Positions 1-10,631 of a stretch of DNA of 64,000 bases are shown piece after piece. Both the position numbers and the translations under genes were made by a program. Positions within the stretch are counted from its first letter, which is position 1. Every line of letters begins with the position of its first letter. Origin of the DNA: Nitrospirales bacterium LBB_01 (GTDB lineage Bacteria > Nitrospirota > Thermodesulfovibrionia > Thermodesulfovibrionales > Magnetobacteriaceae); NCBI GenBank assembly GCA_004376055.2, contig CP049016.1, positions 310,001 to 374,000 of the forward strand, in the 5' to 3' direction. Below the pieces are notes generated by a model. That model did no database searches, had not been told where the DNA came from, and worked only from the letters and a program-made list of their open reading frames with translations.

Positions 1-1239
1 TCCCCGGCGTTTTATTTTCACGTATTTGAAAAACACGAAAACTATGTTCTTGTTGATATATGGGCGTGGGAAAGCAGGATAGCAAGCCAGATAGCCGATC
101 AATTTCCCTACAATTACACAGTCCCAGAGGATGTCTTGTTTAAGTCGGCTGACTACGAGATTTCAGTGCTGCAAAATCATGGAAAAACCTTTCTGATAGC
201 TCACGGACCGGAGGGTTTCATCGGCACACGCGTTTTTATCAGAGATGTAAGCCAGAAAGATATGGAAACATTCATCAGAGGTCTTGGAGCGGTAAGGGAG
301 AAAATTAAACTCATCCGGGTCTCAAAAGCTGCATCAGATATTGGTAAAGGGTTTTCGCTTACAATCCCTATTGTGGAAACTGAACCAAAGGACTATCCAT
401 TAGTGCTTGATAACATTGCCGCATTTAATCTTGGCCCATTTTTGTCAAAACCCTGGTACTCAGGGCTTGACATAGATTTTGTCATGAGAGTTTCTGCTTA
501 CTCATTTGTGTGTTACATGATTTCAACTTACATATCACTTAACAGACTTGATAACACTGCTCTGGAATTACAGAGTAAGATTTCTGAGACAAATAAGAAA
601 GTCATGCTCCTTGCCGAGGTACAGTCCAAAGACATCACATCTAAGGTGCTGACAGCGCTTGCCGCCAAAGTGAAGGAAACTACTCCGCCCCTTGAGGTGC
701 TGGACGCCCTTGCCGTAGCCTCTCCGCAAGGTGACAGGTATCAGCAGATTCAGATAACCAACAGAAACGTAAGTGCCATGATGCTGACCCTTGACCCCGC
801 CACGGCCATAAAAAGTCTTAGCACTAACCCTGCCGTGGAGTTTGTTCAGCTGGTGGGTGAGCCTCAGAAGGATGCCAAAAACACATATAAAATCAATCTT
901 AGCATCACAATTTCCGATAAAGACAAACTGGAACAGGCCCTTATGATACAGAAAAACATTGTTACAGCCTCCCTGCCTTCTATAAAAGTTGGTGACAACA
1001 GTGTTAACACATTGAAAGCGCCCTCAACACCTCAGCCTGCGATTAAGACAGATAACAATATTAACTCGTTAAAAGTGTCGGCAACCCCTCAACCTTCGAT
1101 TAAGCCCGATAGCGATATTAAGTCATTGAATGCGCCTTCAACTCCTCAGCCAGAAATTAACTCCGATAACAAGGTCAACAACTCACTAAAGACGCCGTCG
1201 TCTCCTCAGGCGCAGTTTAAATCCGGCAAGGAGTTTTAA
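1..1239 (+). CDS. GspL/PilN-like inner-membrane assembly protein (5' partial)
   Basis: The reading frame is open from base 1, so the gene starts before the window; the first internal start-like codon (TTG at 136) is not the true start. About 413 residues are visible: a cytoplasmic-type region, one hydrophobic segment (around FVCYMISTYISL), a short heptad-like stretch (LDNTALELQSKI), then a periplasmic ferredoxin-like region. This is the layout of GspL or a PilM-PilN fusion, the inner-membrane platform of type II secretion or type IV pili. The last 80 or so residues are a degenerate 19-residue Pro/Ser/Asn repeat. Three genes matching M/O, C/P and D/Q components follow with tiny gaps, which supports the call. 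Sequence similarity to GspL itself is weak by eye; the context carries the assignment. Confidence 0.65.
   Translation, partial: SPAFYFHVFEKHENYVLVDIWAWESRIASQIADQFPYNYTVPEDVLFKSADYEISVLQNHGKTFLIAHGPEGFIGTRVFIRDVSQKDMETFIRGLGAVREKIKLIRVSKAASDIGKGFSLTIPIVETEPKDYPLVLDNIAAFNLGPFLSKPWYSGLDIDFVMRVSAYSFVCYMISTYISLNRLDNTALELQSKISETNKKVMLLAEVQSKDITSKVLTALAAKVKETTPPLEVLDALAVASPQGDRYQQIQITNRNVSAMMLTLDPATAIKSLSTNPAVEFVQLVGEPQKDAKNTYKINLSITISDKDKLEQALMIQKNIVTASLPSIKVGDNSVNTLKAPSTPQPAIKTDNNINSLKVSATPQPSIKPDSDIKSLNAPSTPQPEINSDNKVNNSLKTPSSPQAQFKSGKEF
1003..1231 (+). repeat. coding tandem repeat, four ~57-60 bp units
   Basis: Four in-frame units of 57, 57, 57 and about 60 bp encode variants of a 19-20 residue motif with the core SLKxPSTPQPxIK and an Asp/Asn linker. 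They form the C-terminal tail of the GspL/PilN-like protein. The DNA copies have diverged, so this is an old duplication. The tail is low-complexity and probably a flexible periplasmic extension. Confidence 0.8.
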
Positions 1240-1244
1240 CGCAG

Positions 1245-1799
1245 ATGTCTCAGAACATAAAACAAGCCGGTATGAGCAAGGAGAGGATGCGAAAGATAGG
1301 ATTTTTTCTGGTAGCACTCCTTACCCTTGTTCGTTTTGGCATAGTGCCTCTGACAACTGATGTGGGAAAAAAGAAGTCTGTCATTGAGGACTATAAGGTC
1401 ACTTACGCCTCAAAGATGGAGCTCCTAAAGCGCTACATGTCAATAGACATGAACGACTACCCGGAGGTAAATCAGGAGCTGTCCCAGCTTGTTTTCCCAA
1501 AGGAAAGCAATAAAACCTCAGTTCAGACAGACATTATCAAGTTTATGACCAAAACCGCCGAGGACAATCACTTAAACATGCAAAACTTCCAGATGGTTGA
1601 AGGCTCAGAGGGACCTGTCATTACTGAGGTTACCGTTATAATCAAACTTAGGGGTAAATCAAGGGAAATTATGGAATTTTTAAAAGAAGTCCAAAATCAC
1701 AAACCTCTTATCAGAATAAAAAATATTGAAATAAACCAGTCCGGTGACACTGAGTATGCAACAAAAATTGTGGCCTCAGCTTTCATCAGGAAATTATAA
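1245..1799 (+). CDS. GspM/PilO-like inner-membrane protein
   Basis: 184 residues. There is a short basic N-terminus, one membrane helix (KIGFFLVALLTLVRFGIVPL), a helical linker, and a C-terminal alpha/beta region ending in KIVASAFIRKL. This matches the small bitopic GspM/PilO subunits that pair with GspL/PilN. The ATG follows an AAGGAG 11 bases upstream, inside the end of the previous gene, and the gap between the two is only 5 bases. Family assignment rests on topology, size and gene order. Confidence 0.6.
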   Translation: MSQNIKQAGMSKERMRKIGFFLVALLTLVRFGIVPLTTDVGKKKSVIEDYKVTYASKMELLKRYMSIDMNDYPEVNQELSQLVFPKESNKTSVQTDIIKFMTKTAEDNHLNMQNFQMVEGSEGPVITEVTVIIKLRGKSREIMEFLKEVQNHKPLIRIKNIEINQSGDTEYATKIVASAFIRKL

Positions 1800-1807
1800 C
1801 TTGATAC

Positions 1808-2332
1808 ATGACGATAAAAGAATATATTAAAGCTCTAACGAAAAGGGGTACGGAACTGGTCAAACGCAAGATTCCTGAGCTTAAAAAGCATGGAAAGGAC
1901 ATCGTTATATTGTTGGCCTTACTTAGTCTGATACCAGTGTTGGTGGTTAAAAAACCGGATATCAGTTTAACAACTGCTGGACATGGTGAGAAAAACAAAT
2001 ATATTGACAAAAAATCACTTCTTAAGTTAGTTTCTAACGGGATAGATAAACAGTATGCAGGAATCAATGATAGAAATATTTTCTCTCAGGATGGTAAGTA
2101 TGAGGCTCTGGCTCAGCAAAAACCAACAAAGATATACACTCTTGTTGGAATAATAAAGGCAAAGCTGAGCCAGGTGTTTTTAGTGGATAATCTGGGAGGT
2201 ACTTACATAGTAAAGCAGGGTGACACACTTAGTGATGGAACTGTAGTGGCTGGTGTGGATAACATATCAGTAGTGCTTAAAAATGGTACGGAGGAAAAGA
2301 GATTGAAGATTTTGACGGTGGAGAAAAAATGA
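1808..2332 (+). CDS. GspC/PilP-like periplasmic linker protein
   Basis: 174 residues. A basic N-terminal stretch precedes a membrane helix (DIVILLALLSLIPVLVV). A compact beta domain begins at about residue 93 with the INDRNIFSQ motif and runs through YTLVGIIKAK and VFLVDNLGGTYIVKQGDTL. This is the homology-region layout of GspC/PilP, which bridges inner-membrane components to the secretin's N-domains. The stop overlaps the start of the secretin gene by 4 bases, so translation is probably coupled. Confidence 0.7.
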   Translation: MTIKEYIKALTKRGTELVKRKIPELKKHGKDIVILLALLSLIPVLVVKKPDISLTTAGHGEKNKYIDKKSLLKLVSNGIDKQYAGINDRNIFSQDGKYEALAQQKPTKIYTLVGIIKAKLSQVFLVDNLGGTYIVKQGDTLSDGTVVAGVDNISVVLKNGTEEKRLKILTVEKK

Positions 2333-4548
2333 AATTTAAATATTTTTTAGTTTTGGTACCGATATTATTTATGTTTTTGTCCTGCTCTATGTTTTATAAG
2401 GCCACAAAGACTGAAAACGAATCCAAGGGGCCTTCAAGTAAAGACAACACAACCGCAGACAACGTAACACGGCGCTCTCCCGGCACCGGCTCTGTGCTGG
2501 ATTTAGACGATAAGAAAAAAGCGGGAAAGGACGAGGAGATTCCATACCCGGCTTACGAACAAACCGCTGCCGATAAACTGGCAGCTACGTTTGAACCGAT
2601 AGATTACAAAAAACTTGTGACTGAGACAAAACCGGTAATGATAAACGTCGATGGTATGCCGCTCAGTGATTTTATAATCTATGCCGTTGGGGATGCTTTA
2701 AAGGTGACTTTTTTCATTGATGAGGCGGTAAAAGCACTTAAAACCCCGGTCACTATCAGAATGACGAAGGAAATGCCTGCTGAGACGGTGCTTGAAATTG
2801 TTGTGGAACAGCTTAGACAAAACGGTCTTTTGGTCGGGGCGCGGGGCCCAAGCCTGTACATTTTAAAACCTGCCGCCGTTGGAGAGCCAACGGATGTGAA
2901 GTTAGGGCGCGGACTTGTTGCAAGCTCTGCCCGCATTGTTCAGGTGGTGCCGCTTAGATATGTAAACTCCGCAGATATTGTCCCACTAATTGCCGAGCTA
3001 TATAAAACAACCGCAGTTGTTAAGAACTATCACAAAGACAACGCAGTTATCCTCATTGGTACAGCTGCCTCAATGAAGGACATACTGAACTTCATAGATG
3101 TTTTGGACGTGCCGTACTTAAACAAGAAAAAAATCATACTCATGAAACTTGTTTACTGGAAACCGGAGGAGTTTGTAACCCAGATGGCGTCAATTCTGGC
3201 TGGCACAGGAGTTACGGTTTCATTAGACCCTAAGTTGCCAGGAGTTACATTTATTCCGATTAAGTTTTTAAACAGCGTACTTGCCATTACCCCTGATGAT
3301 ACAACTATGGAGTTGGTCACTAAGTGGAAGAGTCGTCTTGATACCTCAGAATCAGCCGGAGCAGAGGAAAAGATTTATGTTTATACCCCCCGGTTTTCAA
3401 TGGCCTCTGAACTGGTTGATTCCATACAAAAGCTCTATGGTTTAAAAACCGGCGTAACACAGGCTAAAACCAAAACAGCCACTGGAGGGCTGCCGTCGTC
3501 GTCTTCAAAGGCGGCTGCCGGAAAACCTCAGACTGACGGTGAATTTGTAGTGCCTGCGGCACTGCCAAAATCCCCGGCCACGGCAACAACGGGGCTTTTG
3601 CCTACAGCACCGGGAGCAGTGACACCGGAGGTTCCAGGACTTAAGATAACCGCTGACGACAAACGAAATGCAGTGCTTATGATGGCCTCTCCATCTATGT
3701 ACCGAACACTGCTGGGTCTCCTTAAAGAGCTTGATACCCCTCCGCGGCAGGTTTCAATAGAGGCAACTGTTGCCGAGCTGACCCTTGACGATGAGAACAC
3801 AATGGGGTTTGAGTGGTACCTTGCCGGCAGAATGCTGGGTAATGTGCTGGGGAGCAAGTATATAGGCCCTTACACACTGGGCACCCTTGGCAACCTTGGA
3901 GTAAGCAGCGGCACGGGCTTGTCCTATTCATTCACATCAGACACCGGAAACCTTCAAGCGCTTATCAGTATGTTAGCAAAAGACAAAAAGGTTGAAATTC
4001 TCTCTAAACCGCACCTTATGGTACTTGACAACGAGGAGGCTTCGATTCAGGTAGGAAATGAGGTTCCTGTTATAACAAGCGAGGTATCCAGCACAGACTT
4101 GACCTCAACCTCTTCAACGTCTCCCAGCGTTTTAAGGAATGTCCAGTACCGAAGCACTGGAGTAATCCTGACGTTAAAACCGACTATAAACTCAGAGGGT
4201 CTTATCACAGTTGAAGTCAGTCAGGAGGTGAGTGAGGCTGACACTAACACCACATCAAGTATAGATTCTCCGCTGATTCTGAAGCGGTCAATACATACAA
4301 AAGTAGTGGTTTCCGACGGGAACACAGTAGTTCTTGGCGGTATGAGATCAAAGTCCAGGTCACACTCGGTAAGTAAAATACCGCTTTTAGGGGATATTCC
4401 ATTGCTGGGATATTTATTCAAGACTGATTCAGCAAGCGAAATAAAAACAGAGTTAATAATCCTTATAACACCTAAAATAGTTCACAATTCCGAGGAGGCT
4501 ACAACGGTAACTAAAGAATTAAGGGAGGGATTAGGGTGGTTTCATTAA
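2329..4548 (+). CDS. gspD: Outer-membrane secretin, GspD/PilQ type
   Basis: 739 residues. A lipoprotein signal with the lipobox FLSC lies at residues 16-19. An N0/STN-like domain follows at about 100-180 (MINVDGMPLSDFIIYAVGDAL), then N1-type modules, a Pro/Ala/Thr linker around 390-430, and the secretin core from VSIEATVAELTLDDENTMGFEW to VVLGGMRSKS...KIPLLGDIPLLGYLF and ELIILITPKIV. It forms the multimeric outer-membrane channel. The order L-M-C-D as one operon suggests a type II-like or pilus-type apparatus. The ATPase and inner-membrane core genes are not in view, so the two cannot be told apart here. Confidence 0.93.
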   Translation: MKFKYFLVLVPILFMFLSCSMFYKATKTENESKGPSSKDNTTADNVTRRSPGTGSVLDLDDKKKAGKDEEIPYPAYEQTAADKLAATFEPIDYKKLVTETKPVMINVDGMPLSDFIIYAVGDALKVTFFIDEAVKALKTPVTIRMTKEMPAETVLEIVVEQLRQNGLLVGARGPSLYILKPAAVGEPTDVKLGRGLVASSARIVQVVPLRYVNSADIVPLIAELYKTTAVVKNYHKDNAVILIGTAASMKDILNFIDVLDVPYLNKKKIILMKLVYWKPEEFVTQMASILAGTGVTVSLDPKLPGVTFIPIKFLNSVLAITPDDTTMELVTKWKSRLDTSESAGAEEKIYVYTPRFSMASELVDSIQKLYGLKTGVTQAKTKTATGGLPSSSSKAAAGKPQTDGEFVVPAALPKSPATATTGLLPTAPGAVTPEVPGLKITADDKRNAVLMMASPSMYRTLLGLLKELDTPPRQVSIEATVAELTLDDENTMGFEWYLAGRMLGNVLGSKYIGPYTLGTLGNLGVSSGTGLSYSFTSDTGNLQALISMLAKDKKVEILSKPHLMVLDNEEASIQVGNEVPVITSEVSSTDLTSTSSTSPSVLRNVQYRSTGVILTLKPTINSEGLITVEVSQEVSEADTNTTSSIDSPLILKRSIHTKVVVSDGNTVVLGGMRSKSRSHSVSKIPLLGDIPLLGYLFKTDSASEIKTELIILITPKIVHNSEEATTVTKELREGLGWFH

Positions 4549-4954
4549 ATTAATTTGAAATATACTTAAGTTTTTGGATATTTATACCGATAAAGTGATT
4601 AAAAACAACGGGACGGGCAGAAGTCCGCAAAGGAGGTGGATTGGAACCAGAGGACAGAGGGTCGGACGCAGGATGCCTAAAGATTGTGCATACAGGATGT
4701 GTGTGGTTGGTGTTGACAGGGCTTTAAAAGGATGATAGCTATATGCTTTGCGTAATTTTTTTTTAGACTGTTGACATTGAAAGGGGCAAGTGTTATTATT
4801 TTAGGGGCGTTGTCAGAGTGAGCTTCTGAACGCTGAGATGTTAGTTGAAAGCAAATACGTAGAAAGGGGGTGTGGAGGGTAGATTTGTTGTGAAGGACTG
4901 CTTTGCAGGGTTTTTTATTCACTTATATAGAAAAAAAATAGTAAGGAGGATGTA
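4549..4954 (+). other. Long intergenic region and leader with possible RNA structure
   Basis: 406 bases without a gene between the secretin and the exported proteins. Two nested complementary pairs are visible: GGCA 4616-4619 with TGCC 4674-4677, and GTCCG 4623-4627 with CGGAC 4663-4667, enclosing a purine-rich loop. They lie upstream of the best promoter. Near 4903-4920 a short CTGC-TTT-GCAG stem is followed by a T run and could be a weak attenuator. The ATG at 4955 has a strong AAGGAGG 6 bases upstream. No known riboswitch consensus fits convincingly. Confidence 0.4.
4771..4799 (+). promoter_or_regulatory. Sigma-70-type promoter for the exported-protein pair
   Basis: A perfect TTGACA at 4771-4776 and TATTAT at 4794-4799 are separated by exactly 17 bases. 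Transcription would start near 4806 and give a leader of about 150 nt before the first exported-protein gene. It is one of the best promoter matches in the window and suggests strong expression independent of the secretin operon. Confidence 0.75.
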
Positions 4955-5578
4955 ATGAAAAAGAGATTAGTATTAATTTTTCTACTGGCTCTTGTGTTGA
5001 CTGCGTTTGCTTTAAAAGTTGGTACTCATACAGTGAGTGCTGGTGACAACGTGACTTACACGCTGCCTTTCCTTGGTGTTCATACAAATAGCGTGGTCTA
5101 TTGCTGGGCATCCAACATGTCAACAGATAATGTGACAGTGTGGGTCTCTACAATGGCTAATACTCTAAGCGCAGCACCGCCTGACCAGGCATTGAATCAG
5201 CTCGGTGGTATGATTATCTATGCCAAACAGTCAGACATGATAACGTTTACGGGAGCGACAGCGACGTTAGGCTCAGCAGTTGCTGATTTGTCTCCACAAG
5301 TTGGAACAAACAGCGGTACATTATATGGTGCATCTCTTACGTTTGCAGGTAGTTATAGCAGTATAACCACCACGATAATGACTGCGGGCCCTAACACGGT
5401 CTTCGGACGACAGGTTAGTACAACAATGAGTACCTCGGTAGGCACGCCGACTGTTCCTCTCAACTGTTTAACTATGGGGCTTGCTTGCTATCAGGGTACC
5501 ACATCACCTAAACGTAACTTGGTTGGTTACACTTGTATGGACACTATTAATACGTATATCAATCCTATTAGTTACTAG
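4955..5578 (+). CDS. Exported protein of unknown function, tandem paralogue 1
   Basis: 207 residues with a classical signal peptide (MKKRLVLIFLLALVLTAFALK). The mature part is rich in Ser, Thr, Ala and Gly, with few charges, like an extracellular beta protein. Two blocks are shared with the next gene: an N-terminal block (NVTYTLPFLGVHTNSVVYC) and a C-terminal block (ACYQGTTSPKRNLVGYTCMDTIN). Four Cys in these blocks are conserved between the two and may form disulfides. The gene sits just after a secretin operon and has its own strong promoter, so it may be a substrate or surface subunit of that apparatus. I do not recognise the family. Confidence 0.85.
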   Translation: MKKRLVLIFLLALVLTAFALKVGTHTVSAGDNVTYTLPFLGVHTNSVVYCWASNMSTDNVTVWVSTMANTLSAAPPDQALNQLGGMIIYAKQSDMITFTGATATLGSAVADLSPQVGTNSGTLYGASLTFAGSYSSITTTIMTAGPNTVFGRQVSTTMSTSVGTPTVPLNCLTMGLACYQGTTSPKRNLVGYTCMDTINTYINPISY

Positions 5579-5596
5579 GTGAAGGAGGAGACTATA

Positions 5597-6328
5597 ATGA
5601 AAAAAAGATTTATATATTTTCTGGCACTTCTGCTGGTAATAACCGCAGTGGCTGCAAATGAAAGCAGTAAAAGCGTTATGGCAATGGATAATGTTTCTTA
5701 CATAATGCCGTTTTTACATACTCACACAAACAACGTGGTTTATTGCGTTGCTTCTAACATGTCCTCAGACAATGCAAGTATCAATGTAACGATAATGTCA
5801 AATCAAACAGGCTACTCGTTGGCATGGAACCCTGTAGCTATCTCAGGAACTCTGTATGCGAGAAATACTGTGATGCTCACTTTCAGCGGCACATCTATAG
5901 GCGCAGGCTCAGCTGGAGGGACAGATATATCCAGCTATGTCACATCAGATTCTCAGGCATACGGCGCTGTTATCACTTTCGCCGGTGCCAACTCTCAAGC
6001 GAGCACATCGGGAGTATGGTATCTGACTCCTACCTGTAGTTCAGACATAGGTCAGGGCTGTGGTACAGGCCTCCCCGATGGTTACTCTGATAGAGGTGGA
6101 ACTGTGCAACGTGGCAAGACAACACTGCCTCGTTATACCTATGGGCGTAGCGCACGTTTGGTGGGAACGACCTATATGGATGTCAATCATGGACAACCGA
6201 CCATACCTCTTAGCTGCCAGACTCTTCAGATGGCATGTTTCCAGGGTACAACCAGTCCAAGGAGAAACCTTGTTGGTTTCATGTGTATGGATACTATCAA
6301 TTCCATGTACCCTCCACAAGGCATATAA
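5597..6328 (+). CDS. Exported protein of unknown function, tandem paralogue 2
   Basis: 243 residues from ATG 5597, which has GAAGGAGG just upstream; the in-frame GTG at 5579 overlaps that ribosome site and is unlikely. There is a signal peptide (MKKRFIYFLALLLVITAVAA). The shared blocks are NVSYIMPFLHTHTNNVVYC near the N-terminus and ACFQGTTSPRRNLVGFMCMDTIN at the C-terminus. The middle is longer than in paralogue 1 and carries an extra Cys pair (TCSSDIGQGCG). The gene begins 18 bases after its neighbour and ends at a strong terminator, so the two form one transcript. Function unknown. Confidence 0.85.
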   Translation: MKKRFIYFLALLLVITAVAANESSKSVMAMDNVSYIMPFLHTHTNNVVYCVASNMSSDNASINVTIMSNQTGYSLAWNPVAISGTLYARNTVMLTFSGTSIGAGSAGGTDISSYVTSDSQAYGAVITFAGANSQASTSGVWYLTPTCSSDIGQGCGTGLPDGYSDRGGTVQRGKTTLPRYTYGRSARLVGTTYMDVNHGQPTIPLSCQTLQMACFQGTTSPRRNLVGFMCMDTINSMYPPQGI

Positions 6329-6339
6329 TATTTGAAGCG

Positions 6340-6371
6340 GAGCAGGCCTGAAAAGGCCTGCTCTACTTTTT
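6340..6371 (+). terminator. Rho-independent terminator
   Basis: A perfect 9-bp stem, GAGCAGGCC (6340-6348) with GGCCTGCTC (6355-6363), encloses a TGAAAA loop and is followed by TACTTTTTA. It lies 11 bases past the stop of the second exported protein. It also shows that the next gene does not start at the TTG at 6332, which would put the hairpin inside the coding region. Confidence 0.9.
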
Positions 6372-6385
6372 ACCATTTAACAAAC

Positions 6386-8464
6386 GTGATAAAACCCGCT
6401 TATTCCCTCCCTAAGAGGGAAGTTTTTATTAGAGTAGCACATCCTGTATTGATAGTTTTTTTTGCAGTTTTAGCTTATTCCAATACACTTAGCTGCCCTT
6501 TTATCTTTGACGACGATGCTATCAGGAAAGGAACATCTCCGCCAACTCTGCTTGATCCCAGATTTTTGATTAATCTTTCCTTTTTGCTTAATTACAAACT
6601 TAACTATCTCAGTGTTAAAGGCTACCATGTTTTTAATATTATCATTCATGTAATAAACGGGCTTTTAATCTATTCGTTTGTTTCACTCATCTGTAAGATT
6701 GAAACAACTGAAAAGAACAACAGCCGTTCTCACTATGAGACGCTGGCGTTTTTTATTTCCCTGATTTTTGTTACCCATCCGATAGAGTTGTTTGCCGTGA
6801 CATATATAGTGCAAAGAGCAACGTCAATGGCTGTTATGTTTTATCTACTGACGCTTATTTTTTATATAAGATTTAGAGTTGTGCACAGTAAAGGGAATAC
6901 CTTGTTCAGAGCATATTACGCACTGTCCTTAGTATTTACCCTTATGGCGGCAAAAACCAAAGAAATCACCATTACTTTACCTGTTATACTTGCATTGTGT
7001 GAATTTGTTTTCTTTAAGGGTAACTTCAAAAAGAGACTAACATACTTGCTCCCTTTTTTCTTACTGATACCACTAACCATCATTCAGATAAATGCCGTTG
7101 GAGTTGATGTTGTTTTTAGCGAGCCGCAGAGTAAAATATATGCAAATAACTCTGCTGCTGCATCGGCTGTCAAATCGCAGCTTATTGCTGGTAACCGATG
7201 GGAGTATCTTTTTACACAGTTCAAAGTGATAACGACATACCTGCAGATGTTTTTTTATCCTCACAATCTCACTCTCATTCATTATTTTACAGTGTCAAGA
7301 ACTTTTTTTGAGCCAAAGGTGATTTTGGCATTTCTGTTTCTGCTTGTTTTATTCTCATCTGGTGCATACCTCATCTTCATGGGCAAGAAAGAAACTAAAT
7401 TAGCCGGATTTGGACTTTTATGGTTTTTTGTAACTATCTCGCCACAATCAAGCATTGTGCCGATTCAGGGGTGGATGATTTTTGAGTATAGGGCGTATTT
7501 AGCCTCCATTGGGATTTATATTGCCGTCATTGTGGCTGTGTTTAGTCTTTTTAGGGCTTATTTAAAAGCGGTTTGTCTGCTCTTGCTGTCGCTTTCTATG
7601 TTGCTTACAGTTGTGACTTATAAGTACAACAAAACATGGGCTACTGAGATATCCATGTGGGAGGACAATGTGAGGGTTGAACCTCAGCACCCTGTGCCTC
7701 ACGTAAATCTTGGGAGCGCTTACTTTGCCGAAAAAAGATATGACGACGCCATAGCTCAATTTAAACTTGCGATAGACTTAAGCCCGACTGTGCCTGAGGC
7801 GTATAATGATCTTGGATTGGTGTATGCGCGTAAGGGGCTTTTTAATGAGGCTTTAGAGAAATTTAAATATGCAATGACTCTTGAGCGCTCCTATGTCTCT
7901 CCACGCGTTAACCTTGGCGTGATGTATATGAATAGAGGGATGAGTGAACAGGCTATCGCAGAGTTTAAGGCAGCCTTAGAAATAAACCGCTTTAACCCTG
8001 GTGCTCACATTAATCTTGGAACTCTTTATGCTAAAATGGGGCAAAAGGAAAAAGCGATAGATGAGTTTAAGATAGTAATCGTCACTAATCCTAACATAGT
8101 TGAGCCATACGTTAACCTTGGAGCGCTGTATGCCGAGCAGGGGTTTACTGCTTTAGCAGAGGATAACCTTAAAAAGGCCATGAGAGTTGATCCATATTTT
8201 TCGGACACATATAGCATAATGGGCACAATATATGAGGAAAGAGGGGCATTTAACGAGGCCTCTGCCAATTATCAGAAAGCAATTAGGTACAATAAAGACA
8301 ACATGAATGCAAGATTAAATCTTGCTGCAATTTATATAAAACAGGGGCTGCTCCTTGATGCTGAGAGCCAGTACAGATATATTTTAAGTGCAGAGCCTAA
8401 TAACGTTGAAGTAAGGGGCGCATTATTAACTATAGAACAACAGCTAAACAGGCAGTTACCTTAA
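6386..8464 (+). CDS. TMTC-like multi-pass membrane protein with TPR tail (putative GT-C glycosyltransferase)
   Basis: About 690 residues. The N-terminal 400 residues hold roughly ten membrane helices. An acidic FDDDA motif lies in the first outer loop, followed by KGYHVFNIIIHVING and HPIELFAVTYIVQRATS; this is the pattern of TMTC/DUF1736 proteins, a GT-C fold. The C-terminal 270 residues are tandem TPRs (repeated AYNDLGLVYARKG-type units). Eukaryotic TMTCs are protein O-mannosyltransferases; the bacterial donor and target are unknown. The GTG at 6386 is the first plausible start after the terminator but has no clear ribosome site. A close paralogue follows 4 bases later. Confidence 0.8.
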   Translation: MIKPAYSLPKREVFIRVAHPVLIVFFAVLAYSNTLSCPFIFDDDAIRKGTSPPTLLDPRFLINLSFLLNYKLNYLSVKGYHVFNIIIHVINGLLIYSFVSLICKIETTEKNNSRSHYETLAFFISLIFVTHPIELFAVTYIVQRATSMAVMFYLLTLIFYIRFRVVHSKGNTLFRAYYALSLVFTLMAAKTKEITITLPVILALCEFVFFKGNFKKRLTYLLPFFLLIPLTIIQINAVGVDVVFSEPQSKIYANNSAAASAVKSQLIAGNRWEYLFTQFKVITTYLQMFFYPHNLTLIHYFTVSRTFFEPKVILAFLFLLVLFSSGAYLIFMGKKETKLAGFGLLWFFVTISPQSSIVPIQGWMIFEYRAYLASIGIYIAVIVAVFSLFRAYLKAVCLLLLSLSMLLTVVTYKYNKTWATEISMWEDNVRVEPQHPVPHVNLGSAYFAEKRYDDAIAQFKLAIDLSPTVPEAYNDLGLVYARKGLFNEALEKFKYAMTLERSYVSPRVNLGVMYMNRGMSEQAIAEFKAALEINRFNPGAHINLGTLYAKMGQKEKAIDEFKIVIVTNPNIVEPYVNLGALYAEQGFTALAEDNLKKAMRVDPYFSDTYSIMGTIYEERGAFNEASANYQKAIRYNKDNMNARLNLAAIYIKQGLLLDAESQYRYILSAEPNNVEVRGALLTIEQQLNRQLP

Positions 8465-8468
8465 GCGG

Positions 8469-10631
8469 ATGTTTAGAAAAAACACTGTAATTTTATTTGC
8501 CATTTTGGCCTCTGCATTTGTTCCGTATTCAAATGTGTTCTATGCTCCGTTTGTTTTTGACGATACAGTGATTTCTAATTTTCTGAAAATGAGGAGTTTT
8601 ACAGAAGCCAGGTTTATAACAGAAACTACATTTACTCTGAATTACTTAATTCACGGCTATTGGCTGCCCGGCTACCATTTTGTAAATATAGCAATACATG
8701 CGATAAACGGGGTATTGATTTATCTGTTTATGACTCAAACGTTTAAAACGCTCAGCTTATCAATGGCAGCCAGCTCAGCTAAAAAATATTCATTTTTTAT
8801 TTCGCTCCTTTTTCTCACGCACCCTCTTCAGATTCAGGCGGTGACATATACCTCGCAAAGATACACGTCACTTGTGACTCTTTTTGTTTTAGCGGCTTTA
8901 AACACTTACGTACTGTGGAGGCGAGGCAATACTACAGTTGAACATTCTAAAAAGAAATCCGTAGGACTTTACATATCGGCAATCATAATCACTATTTTGT
9001 CTGTAAAAGTCAAAGAGCTTGCCGTTGTCCTGCCGTTTTTAATCACACTAGTTGAATTTATGTTTTTTAGTGGTAAAATTAAATCCAGAATAATTTATGT
9101 TTTGCCGTTTTTTTTGATTATCCCTGTCATTATTTTTAATGCACTAAATGTATCCGGCATTTCATTTGAAAATCTGACACAAACCCAGCATGTTTCGGCT
9201 GGGGTTATACAAGATGCTGATATCGTGTATGATGTAAAAAGTCCTTTGATAGCAAACACCAGAATGGAGTACATTCTTACAGAATTTAGGGTTATTGTTA
9301 CGTATCTGAGGATGCTTGTACTGCCTATTAATCTTACGCTGGTACATTATTATCCTGTTTCAAGGAGTGTTTTTGATTTAAGTGTGATTTTCTCACTTTT
9401 GTTTCTTTTGGCAATATTTATTTTTGGCGCTGTAATGTTTGCTCAGGGACATAAACAAAATGACATTATGAAAAAACTCATCTCTTTTGGAATATTTTGG
9501 TTTTTCATAGGAATTTTACCTCAATCAAGCCTCATAAATAAGTATGGCTGGACCATATTTGAGTACAGGGTTTATTTGTCATCGCTGGGATTCTTTATTG
9601 CTGTGTTTTTTCTGGTACTACACATTTTTAGAAATAAAGCGATGTCTGTAGTCAATTATTTAATTGCTGCGATAATAGTTCTAAGCGCTGTGACTACACT
9701 TTATTTAAACGGTAACTGGCAGTCTGAAATTAAACTATGGGAGGACAATGTAAAAAAAGAGCCGCTACATCCTGTGCCCAGCATTCAATTAGGAATTGCC
9801 TACGGTAATGCTAAACGCTTCAAAGAGGCACATGCGGAATTTGAGAGGGCAAGCCAGATGGAACCAGACTTTCCCGAAATACCCTATCAAAACGGTAAAG
9901 TGTTTGCAATGGAGCGTCAATATGACAAGGCTCTTGAGCAATTTGATAAATCTATCAGTATTAACAGTTATCTGCCCTTTACTCACTTTGATAAGGCTGA
10001 GGTGCTTGCAATTAAAAATAAGTGGCCAGAGGTGATAGATGAACTACTACTGTCATTAAAATGCGGTGGAGGCGGCTATTTTACTCTTTACGACTTACTT
10101 GGACGGGCATTTACCGCTACGGGCAGAGTTGGCGAGGCTATAAGGGCTTATGAAAGAGCGCTGAGAATATATTCGGACAATGCTGAGACTCACAACAATC
10201 TGGGCAACCTTTACACTCAGACGGGCAATTTTGCTATGGCTAACACAGAAATTCTGACAGCTCTTAAACTTAACCCTGAACTATACGAGGGCTATAATAA
10301 CCTTGGAGTTTTATATGCTAACACCGGCAGGATGACAGATGCTGTAAAGGAGTTTCAGAGGGCGCTTGCTATAAAAAAAGATTATACAACAGGACTAAAA
10401 AATCTTGCCAATGCCTATATGGGACTTAAGATGTTTGATGATGCAGGCAGCACTCTTAAAGCTGCAATAGAAATGAACCCAGAGAGCGTTGAAATACTAA
10501 CCACAATTGGCAATATGCATCTGCTTAAAGGAAACAAACCGTTGGCAAGGGAATATTACTTAAAGGCACTGAAAATAAACCCTGCTTATGCAGAGACGCT
10601 AAGAAACATTGAGTTAACTAAAACCAATTAG
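8469..10631 (+). CDS. TMTC-like multi-pass membrane protein with TPR tail, paralogue 2
   Basis: 720 residues with the same architecture as the gene before it: an acidic VFDDTV motif in the first loop, GYHFVNIAIHAING, HPLQIQAVTYTSQRYTS, about ten membrane helices to residue 420, then TPRs to the C-terminus. The TPRs have the typical pattern (AETHNNLGNLYTQTGNF, YEGYNNLGVLYANTGRM). It is a diverged tandem duplicate. Both members of this pair have the QR motif, whereas the pair at 29-32 kb has ERKD at the same place, so two subfamilies are present. Confidence 0.8.
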   Translation: MFRKNTVILFAILASAFVPYSNVFYAPFVFDDTVISNFLKMRSFTEARFITETTFTLNYLIHGYWLPGYHFVNIAIHAINGVLIYLFMTQTFKTLSLSMAASSAKKYSFFISLLFLTHPLQIQAVTYTSQRYTSLVTLFVLAALNTYVLWRRGNTTVEHSKKKSVGLYISAIIITILSVKVKELAVVLPFLITLVEFMFFSGKIKSRIIYVLPFFLIIPVIIFNALNVSGISFENLTQTQHVSAGVIQDADIVYDVKSPLIANTRMEYILTEFRVIVTYLRMLVLPINLTLVHYYPVSRSVFDLSVIFSLLFLLAIFIFGAVMFAQGHKQNDIMKKLISFGIFWFFIGILPQSSLINKYGWTIFEYRVYLSSLGFFIAVFFLVLHIFRNKAMSVVNYLIAAIIVLSAVTTLYLNGNWQSEIKLWEDNVKKEPLHPVPSIQLGIAYGNAKRFKEAHAEFERASQMEPDFPEIPYQNGKVFAMERQYDKALEQFDKSISINSYLPFTHFDKAEVLAIKNKWPEVIDELLLSLKCGGGGYFTLYDLLGRAFTATGRVGEAIRAYERALRIYSDNAETHNNLGNLYTQTGNFAMANTEILTALKLNPELYEGYNNLGVLYANTGRMTDAVKEFQRALAIKKDYTTGLKNLANAYMGLKMFDDAGSTLKAAIEMNPESVEILTTIGNMHLLKGNKPLAREYYLKALKINPAYAETLRNIELTKTN

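Follow-up and report, generated by a model that had tools for sequence, protein, structure and literature searches.

The analysed window is a 64-kb stretch (G000:C1:310001-374000) of genome G000, a one-contig assembly of 3.27 Mb. It opens with part of a type II secretion system (T2SS) operon, which is followed by two tandem open reading frames (ORFs), ORF1 and ORF2 (Table 1). Here we describe these two ORFs, the family of C-terminal domains to which they belong and the tie between that family and the neighbouring secretion system. The window's own taxonomic family, whose Nitrospirota members include magnetotactic bacteria, is called f1 below and is represented by 19 genomes (G000-G018); g1, g2 and g3 denote genera.

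Table 1. Features of the ORF pair and of its surroundings (positions in the window)
Feature	Position	Strand	Remarks
ORF1	4955..5578	+	ATG start; 207 aa; stand-alone domain protein; C-terminal -ISY
C-terminal domain of ORF1	5051..5545	+	row 1 of alignment A1
ORF2	5597..6328	+	243 aa; stand-alone domain protein; C-terminal -QGI
C-terminal domain of ORF2, with a family-internal insertion inside	5693..6295	+	row 2 of alignment A1
Promoter-like site, extended -10	4771..4799	+	TTGACA-17-TATTAT with TG; 11/12 positions match
Intrinsic terminator	6339..6364	+	11 pairs; strongest of those found
gspL-like gene, 3' part	1..1239	+	start upstream (L018:6678); 520 aa ORF; position between gspK and gspM
gspM	1245..1799	+	T2SSM_b E 8e-6, above its cutoff
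gspC-like gene	1808..2332	+	named by position
gspD, secretin; its T2SS clade co-occurs with the domain	2329..4548	+	PF00263 E 4e-48; orthologues found
TPR protein, hydrophobic N-terminal half	6332..8464	+	context; true start probably past the terminator
Second TPR protein of the same kind	8469..10631	+	context

Both ORFs are intact, and 94 of their 203 aligned residues are identical (46%). ORF2 is open from a GTG at 5579; the ATG at 5597, which lies behind AAGGAGG, is the likelier start. Beyond the first 28 amino acids (aa), charged residues make up 5.6% of ORF1 and 8.4% of ORF2, and the two contain 4 and 6 Cys, respectively. Ser and Thr together account for 24-27% of the two ORFs, and both N-terminal sequences look like those of exported proteins. 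The original prediction had described low-charge tandem paralogues with signal peptides and with conserved Cys in shared terminal blocks, and these observations agree with it: the blocks it quoted are present, and an alignment of 40 domains has four invariant Cys columns. It had also called the family unknown, and neither Pfam nor NCBIfam gave a match for ORF1 or ORF2 up to E 1, so that the known sorting-tag families were rejected as candidates. PHROGs returned three weak matches for ORF2, all of unknown function (best E 0.0035).

The strong terminator predicted behind the pair was confirmed as the strongest of 6 found, with 1.1 expected. The prediction of an own near-consensus promoter was upheld in part: the site ahead of ORF1 does come close to the consensus, but the 4 promoter-like sites found are no enrichment over the mean of 4.3 in shuffles. 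An Rfam scan around the ORF pair detected no RNA element at gathering score.

Searching the G000 genome with ORF2 yielded 28 matches, which correspond to 14 intact proteins at 9 loci and one remnant, a piece of the C-terminal block with an internal stop at G000:C1:1595775-1595837. This homologue search, which the original prediction had suggested, added 12 intact members as well as forms fused to other proteins. The 12 lie at 8 other loci, with no secretin in the stretches inspected. Common to all 14 is an all-beta domain of approximately 130-200 aa with four Cys, marked by a shared block extending from Y.(M/L)P(Y/F) to C(F/Y)xGT..P.R....G..C. Alignment A1, built from 40 of 41 domain stretches (L029 omitted; 8 shortened or divergent proteins had been skipped earlier), contains 10 invariant columns, four of them Cys. 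For alignment A2, 57 domain proteins from the window and the named loci were reduced to 48 by removing 9 partial ones; A3 holds 47 sequences (one near-duplicate omitted). The A1 profile had no match among PDB sequences up to E 10. Literature searches on the domain, or on T2SS and surface layers in Nitrospirota, returned nothing relevant, with subscription journals mostly outside their coverage. Judged from these searches and from the family libraries, the domain family is apparently undescribed.

All 161 distinct proteins of the loci examined carry the domain in last position, followed by a tail of 0-64 residues, mostly 6-15. These proteins come from loci chosen for matching and are therefore not a census; two of them are weak matches (L059 of G300, L070 of G009). 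The commonest form is a stand-alone domain behind a signal peptide. In 50 of the 161 proteins, more than 150 aa precede the domain, and these passengers fall into 10 mutually dissimilar clusters, one of which is the gspD neighbour of G300. Among 10 fusion representatives, 7 had Pfam matches before the domain and 3 had none; the matches include NHL, SBBP, Trypsin_2, Peptidase_S8, PQQ_2 and Flg_new_2 (InlB type). The recognised passengers are of extracellular types, namely trypsin-like and subtilisin proteases, propellers and InlB-type repeats. By a crude hydropathy test, a hydrophobic N-terminus is present in 131 of 138 complete members, compared with 195 of 552 control ORFs.

Despite tails that vary in length and sequence, the last three positions are conserved. 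The final residue is Y, F or H in 114 of 118 nonredundant complete proteins (Tyr 77, Phe 25, His 12), position -2 is G, T, A or S in 105 and position -3 is Y, L, I, F or V in 99. Of 552 control ORFs from these loci, 3.1% have a terminal Y and 6.5% a terminal F. After stricter thinning, Y, F or H was terminal in 38 of 38 usable proteins. ORF2 is one of the four exceptions.

Fusions often have relatives beside them in g1, where 23 of 27 form a tandem with a further family gene. A stand-alone gene is the neighbour of 18 of the 27, against 4 of 12 fusions in the other genomes. Six domain fusions stand in a row in G002:C11 (L162:6313-18945); one of them, 1473 aa long, contains BNR-like and InlB-type repeats. 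One PQQ-propeller fusion looks interrupted at L012:8452-10256 (G000:C1:1448451-1450255): a 178 aa ORF, which clusters with the fusion, lies just upstream of a 382 aa ORF without a signal peptide.

The AlphaFold2 model of ORF1 is all-beta and of moderate quality (pLDDT 77). A stand-alone relative of 159 aa (L081:3920-4396) gave a good model (pLDDT 91.8, pTM 0.81), which is an all-beta sandwich. Foldseek with both models returned nothing below E 0.001. The best neighbour of the L081 model is TM1070 (Z 9.3, root-mean-square deviation (rmsd) 2.9, 105 aligned, 15% identity), a score that, for the predicted model of a relative, is just slightly over the usual best of unrelated models. The Anabaena sensory rhodopsin transducer was matched at Z 7.8 (rmsd 2.5-2.6, 88 aligned, 7% identity) and the remaining neighbours at Z 6.1 and below; VIA on the less confident model of ORF1 reached a best Z of 6.9. 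The likeness to TM1070 and the transducer would be one of shared arrangement only, and the two ORFs differ from them in having no Pfam match to that sequence profile.

When short opposite-strand ORFs are ignored, a family member is the next gene after gspD in 13 of 15 readable f1 genomes (G000, G001, G002, G003, G004, G005, G006, G009, G010, G011, G013, G016 and G018). This adjacency is kept across five or more f1 genera, and the genes farther on differ. The contig of G014 ends at gspD, and a gspD of this kind was not found in G015 or G017. All five fully readable outgroup loci have, after gspD, a protein of 486-512 aa with an exported-type N-terminus (G316, G253, G284, G300 and G275), with a short ORF between gspD and the long gene in G316 (126 aa) and G253 (98 aa). 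A cut-off ORF after gspD in G344 resembles that of G300, and the contig of G314 ends at gspK. By eye, the T2SS operons of G314 and G316 lie near polysaccharide ABC transporter-like genes (L195:504-2011, L202:5798-7305), a setting that would suit an original cargo in the form of a glycosylated surface protein.

In the gspD neighbours of G253 and G300, the last ~100 aa match the domain model, and the profile of this ancestral type aligns with that of the family type (hhalign probability 97.6%, E 3.9e-12). Genome G009 of f1 has three further proteins, of 550, 1070 and ~1120 aa (the last by open frame), in which a C-terminal domain of the ancestral type stands behind differing N-terminal parts; one G009 motif, CIQKQGTTS..KR.VPVLT, is between the ancestral and family types. 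When the ancestral type is used to root a tree of 102 domains, the gspD-adjacent copy of G009 branches first, followed by a clade with the gspD-adjacent copies of g2 and g3 (supports 93/78, 89/73). This tree, built on few columns and with a long outgroup branch, is compatible with an origin of the family at the gspD locus, short of proof.

Profile A1 detected the domain in 13 of the 395 phylum genomes, and 12 of these belong to f1. The only match outside f1 is in G300 (E 1.3e-5), in the gene directly after gspD of the T2SS clade. With ORF2 as the query, 18 of 60 relatives were matched among the matches listed, all of them f1 and G000 included. A peptide-pattern scan of one genome each of 84,980 species gave 34 loci, all in genomes labelled Nitrospirae bacterium or Candidatus Magnetominusculus; it used one pattern, which divergent members may escape. 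The GspK of the operon separates the 395 phylum genomes into 18 at E 5.5e-57 or better and the rest, the next being at 2.3e-26.

The co-occurrence with the secretin set, which the original prediction had proposed as a check, was found at the level of genomes. The domain is present in 18 of 19 f1 genomes, and 17 of these 18 (G000-G006, G008-G016 and G018) have GspD or GspK of the T2SS clade. G007, the sole f1 genome without the domain, is also without the T2SS clade. Outside f1, the clade occurs in G316, G253, G284, G300, G314, G344 and G275. A Fisher test of the association (p 9e-18) takes no account of shared ancestry, and we give it no weight as evidence.

The adjacent secretin operon named in the original prediction is indeed present. 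It represents half of a T2SS, in the order gspJ-K-L-M-C-D, and starts upstream of the window (L018). Its GspD also matches PF03958 (E 1e-19), over the cutoff like PF00263, and scores 22.4 bits with the N0 model, under the cutoff of 27. GspK matches T2SSK_1st (E 7e-15) and the minor pseudopilin GspJ matches N_methyl (E 9e-6); the GspC-like and GspL-like proteins had no relevant Pfam match and are named by position. The G-E-F-H-I set of G000 lies at a separate locus (L209, G000:C1:2766000-2785000). There, GspE (G000:C1:2774791-2776464) is 56% identical to the GspE of an outgroup's complete operon, itself a T2SSE match at E 5e-131, and its neighbours fit F, G, H and I in size, order and pilin-like N-terminus (by eye). 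A first reading of the operon before ORF1 as a type IV pilus operon was ruled out because gspK, gspJ and gspM together with the GspE orthologue identify a T2SS; a separate PilMNOPQ-like locus of G000 lies, by gene order, at L188. G000 carries three secretin genes besides this gspD, and the domain model had no match up to E 10 among the ORFs at their loci.

Three observations concern the surroundings of these genes. A transposase-like gene pair, IS3-like by eye, adjoins the gspI-like gene (L209:4526-5661). In the GspC-like protein of G009 (L127:9779-10489), a long Thr-Pro repeat separates the N-terminal part from the C-terminal domain. Genes similar to both TPR genes of the window recur near the gspD locus in several genomes; the window's TPR proteins (6332-10631), which we take to be TMTC-like, could be glycosyltransferases acting on the ORF pair.

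The export-type N-terminus, modularity and C-terminal position of the domain, its adjacency to gspD and its co-occurrence with the T2SS clade can be read directly from the sequences. On balance, we consider it probable that the ORF pair represents, in stand-alone form, a C-terminal-domain family whose members are the cargo of a dedicated T2SS. The best reading is that of a portable T2SS cargo module, which would act as a signal, as a surface-assembly domain or as both. The proteins would be exported by Sec via their predicted signal peptides, would fold in the periplasm into the modelled four-Cys beta-sandwich, presumably with disulfides, and would pass in folded form through GspD of the J-K-L-M-C-D T2SS, as adjacency and co-occurrence suggest. 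Because the domain is what the unrelated cargo share, it would most likely be a portable T2SS recognition element and/or a piece that holds proteins at the surface. Its presence on many unrelated exported proteins, together with one T2SS, means that it may be a cargo tag or an anchor. We infer both the T2SS passage and the role of the domain as a recognition or assembly element common to the cargo. In other Nitrospirota, such a T2SS may have started with a single partner protein of ~490 aa. In f1, the C-terminal domain of that protein would then have multiplied, been freed as stand-alone proteins and been fused to proteases, propellers and repeat proteins.

The original prediction saw in the ORF pair a surface or secreted product of the adjacent apparatus. 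The link to the secretin has stood, since it is conserved both in gspD adjacency and in genome co-occurrence. Because 12 of the 14 G000 members lie at other loci, the pair does not represent two special products of this apparatus, and the idea of two locus-specific secretin products was rejected. Homologues without a secretin operon, which the original prediction named as counter-evidence, are found locus by locus but not genome by genome.

Several points weigh against a T2SS cargo family. Most members lie far from any secretin, G008 and G012 have no family gene after gspD, and G017 (75% complete) has the domain, with no T2SS-clade GspD or GspK found. The outgroups G316, G314, G284, G253, G344 and G275 have the T2SS without an A1 profile match; the gspD neighbours of G316 and G284, scanned directly, gave no match to the domain model, and the outgroup proteins have no conserved C-terminal aromatic residue. 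The co-occurrence rests largely on one clade. The domain model places the last residues in a strand or bridge, so that the conserved aromatic end may serve as a structural clasp and not as a free signal. Stand-alone copies, the commonest form, would be needless for a pure signal, and a known T2SS substrate uses several distant determinants together, according to one paper (PMC7949064). T2SS-dependent release or surface display is itself a prediction from sequence.

A stricter form of the cargo proposal can be put forward only tentatively: the domain may be a self-sufficient portable T2SS tag, a counterpart of the C-terminal domain (CTD) of the type IX secretion system (T9SS), perhaps read via its aromatic C-terminal residues. 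If so, one machine could gain new cargo through gene fusion. It is rather unlikely, in our estimate, that the domain is instead a surface-assembly module, with stand-alone proteins that polymerise or coat the outside, fusions that join via the domain and display their passengers, and a T2SS that reads something else. The predominance of stand-alone copies, the modelled all-beta sandwich and the pairing of fusions with family or stand-alone genes, frequent in g1 and found for some fusions elsewhere, all speak for such a module, but taken alone it would leave the tie to one T2SS clade unaccounted for; there are single fusions that lack a partner, and the polymer is hypothetical. The recurrent g1 gene pairs (18/27) suggest that the stand-alone protein is the partner of the fusion, and such a partnership would also favour an assembly role. 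Because of these pairs, we separate signal and anchor no further than by the likelihoods expressed here.

We consider it improbable that the linkage is neutral, that is, that one ancestral gene happens to follow gspD and the rest are a lineage-specific expansion that takes other routes or stays in the periplasm. The 12 G000 members elsewhere, the three other secretins, the gap in G017 and the concentration of the co-occurring genomes mostly in one clade would be in keeping with it. Such an account has to contend with an adjacency maintained over five or more f1 genera while farther genes differ, with an exported gene after gspD in outgroup families as well (homologous at its C-terminus in two) and with the absence of both domain and T2SS clade from G007. 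Very improbable, in our view, is a tie based on glycosylation and not on secretion, in which the adjacent TPR proteins glycosylate low-charge, Ser/Thr-rich substrates. The composition of the ORFs, the recurrence of TPR genes near gspD and the glycan-export-like genes seen by eye near the T2SS in some outgroups would suit it, but TPR genes are absent beside most other family loci, the T2SS tie is stronger, and the glycosyltransferase function of the TPR proteins is putative.

It has long been asked how the T2SS distinguishes its cargo from other folded proteins of the periplasm. Papers of 2021 and 2025 call recruitment still elusive, with no universal element known (PMC7949064, PMC12802150). 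A domain that sits on many unrelated passengers, accompanies one T2SS clade and lies beside gspD is a natural experiment, and at ~130 residues it gives binding studies with GspC, GspD or the pseudopilus tip something concrete to work on. Under the cargo proposal, uncultured Nitrospirota, magnetotactic bacteria among them, would also have a sizeable set of surface or secreted proteins; for these bacteria, a 2021 paper states that they may use a T2SS, and no more (PMC8353452).

Known T2SS substrates (the pectate lyases Pel3 and PelI, VesB, PulA and InvL) resemble the proposed cargo in being folded, Sec-exported, often multidomain and extracellular. They differ in the composite loop signals described for Pel3 (PMC7949064). 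GlyGly-CTERM with rhombosortase and MYXO-CTERM with myxosortase likewise tag unrelated proteins at the C-terminus. In Vibrio cholerae, the proteins with GlyGly-CTERM are T2SS effectors, of which VesB is retained at the surface, and GlyGly-CTERM needs a secondary secretion signal (PMC13393428); MYXO-CTERM is found on dozens of proteins per genome (PMC11980579). Those tags are short and tripartite and include a hydrophobic stretch and a basic end, whereas the family described here has a folded domain of ~130-200 aa and a polar tail with an aromatic residue at its end. By eye, none of the 118 tails has a hydrophobic helix and basic end of the GlyGly-, MYXO- or PEP-CTERM type.

The T9SS CTD is a folded C-terminal beta-sandwich on many unrelated cargo proteins of one machine (PMC4804311, PMC11285876). 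The family shares with it the folded beta-sandwich, the extreme C-terminal position, the many unrelated cargo proteins and the link to one secretion machine. It differs in the machine to which the domain is tied, a T2SS, and in its four-Cys motif and the predominance of stand-alone copies. Neither ORF matched the T9SS sorting-domain models of NCBIfam up to E 1, and a search with TIGR04189 (SprA) gave no match in the genome, nor in any of 14 control genomes. C-terminal sorting domains as such are already known; the T2SS-tied, four-Cys version would be what is new here.
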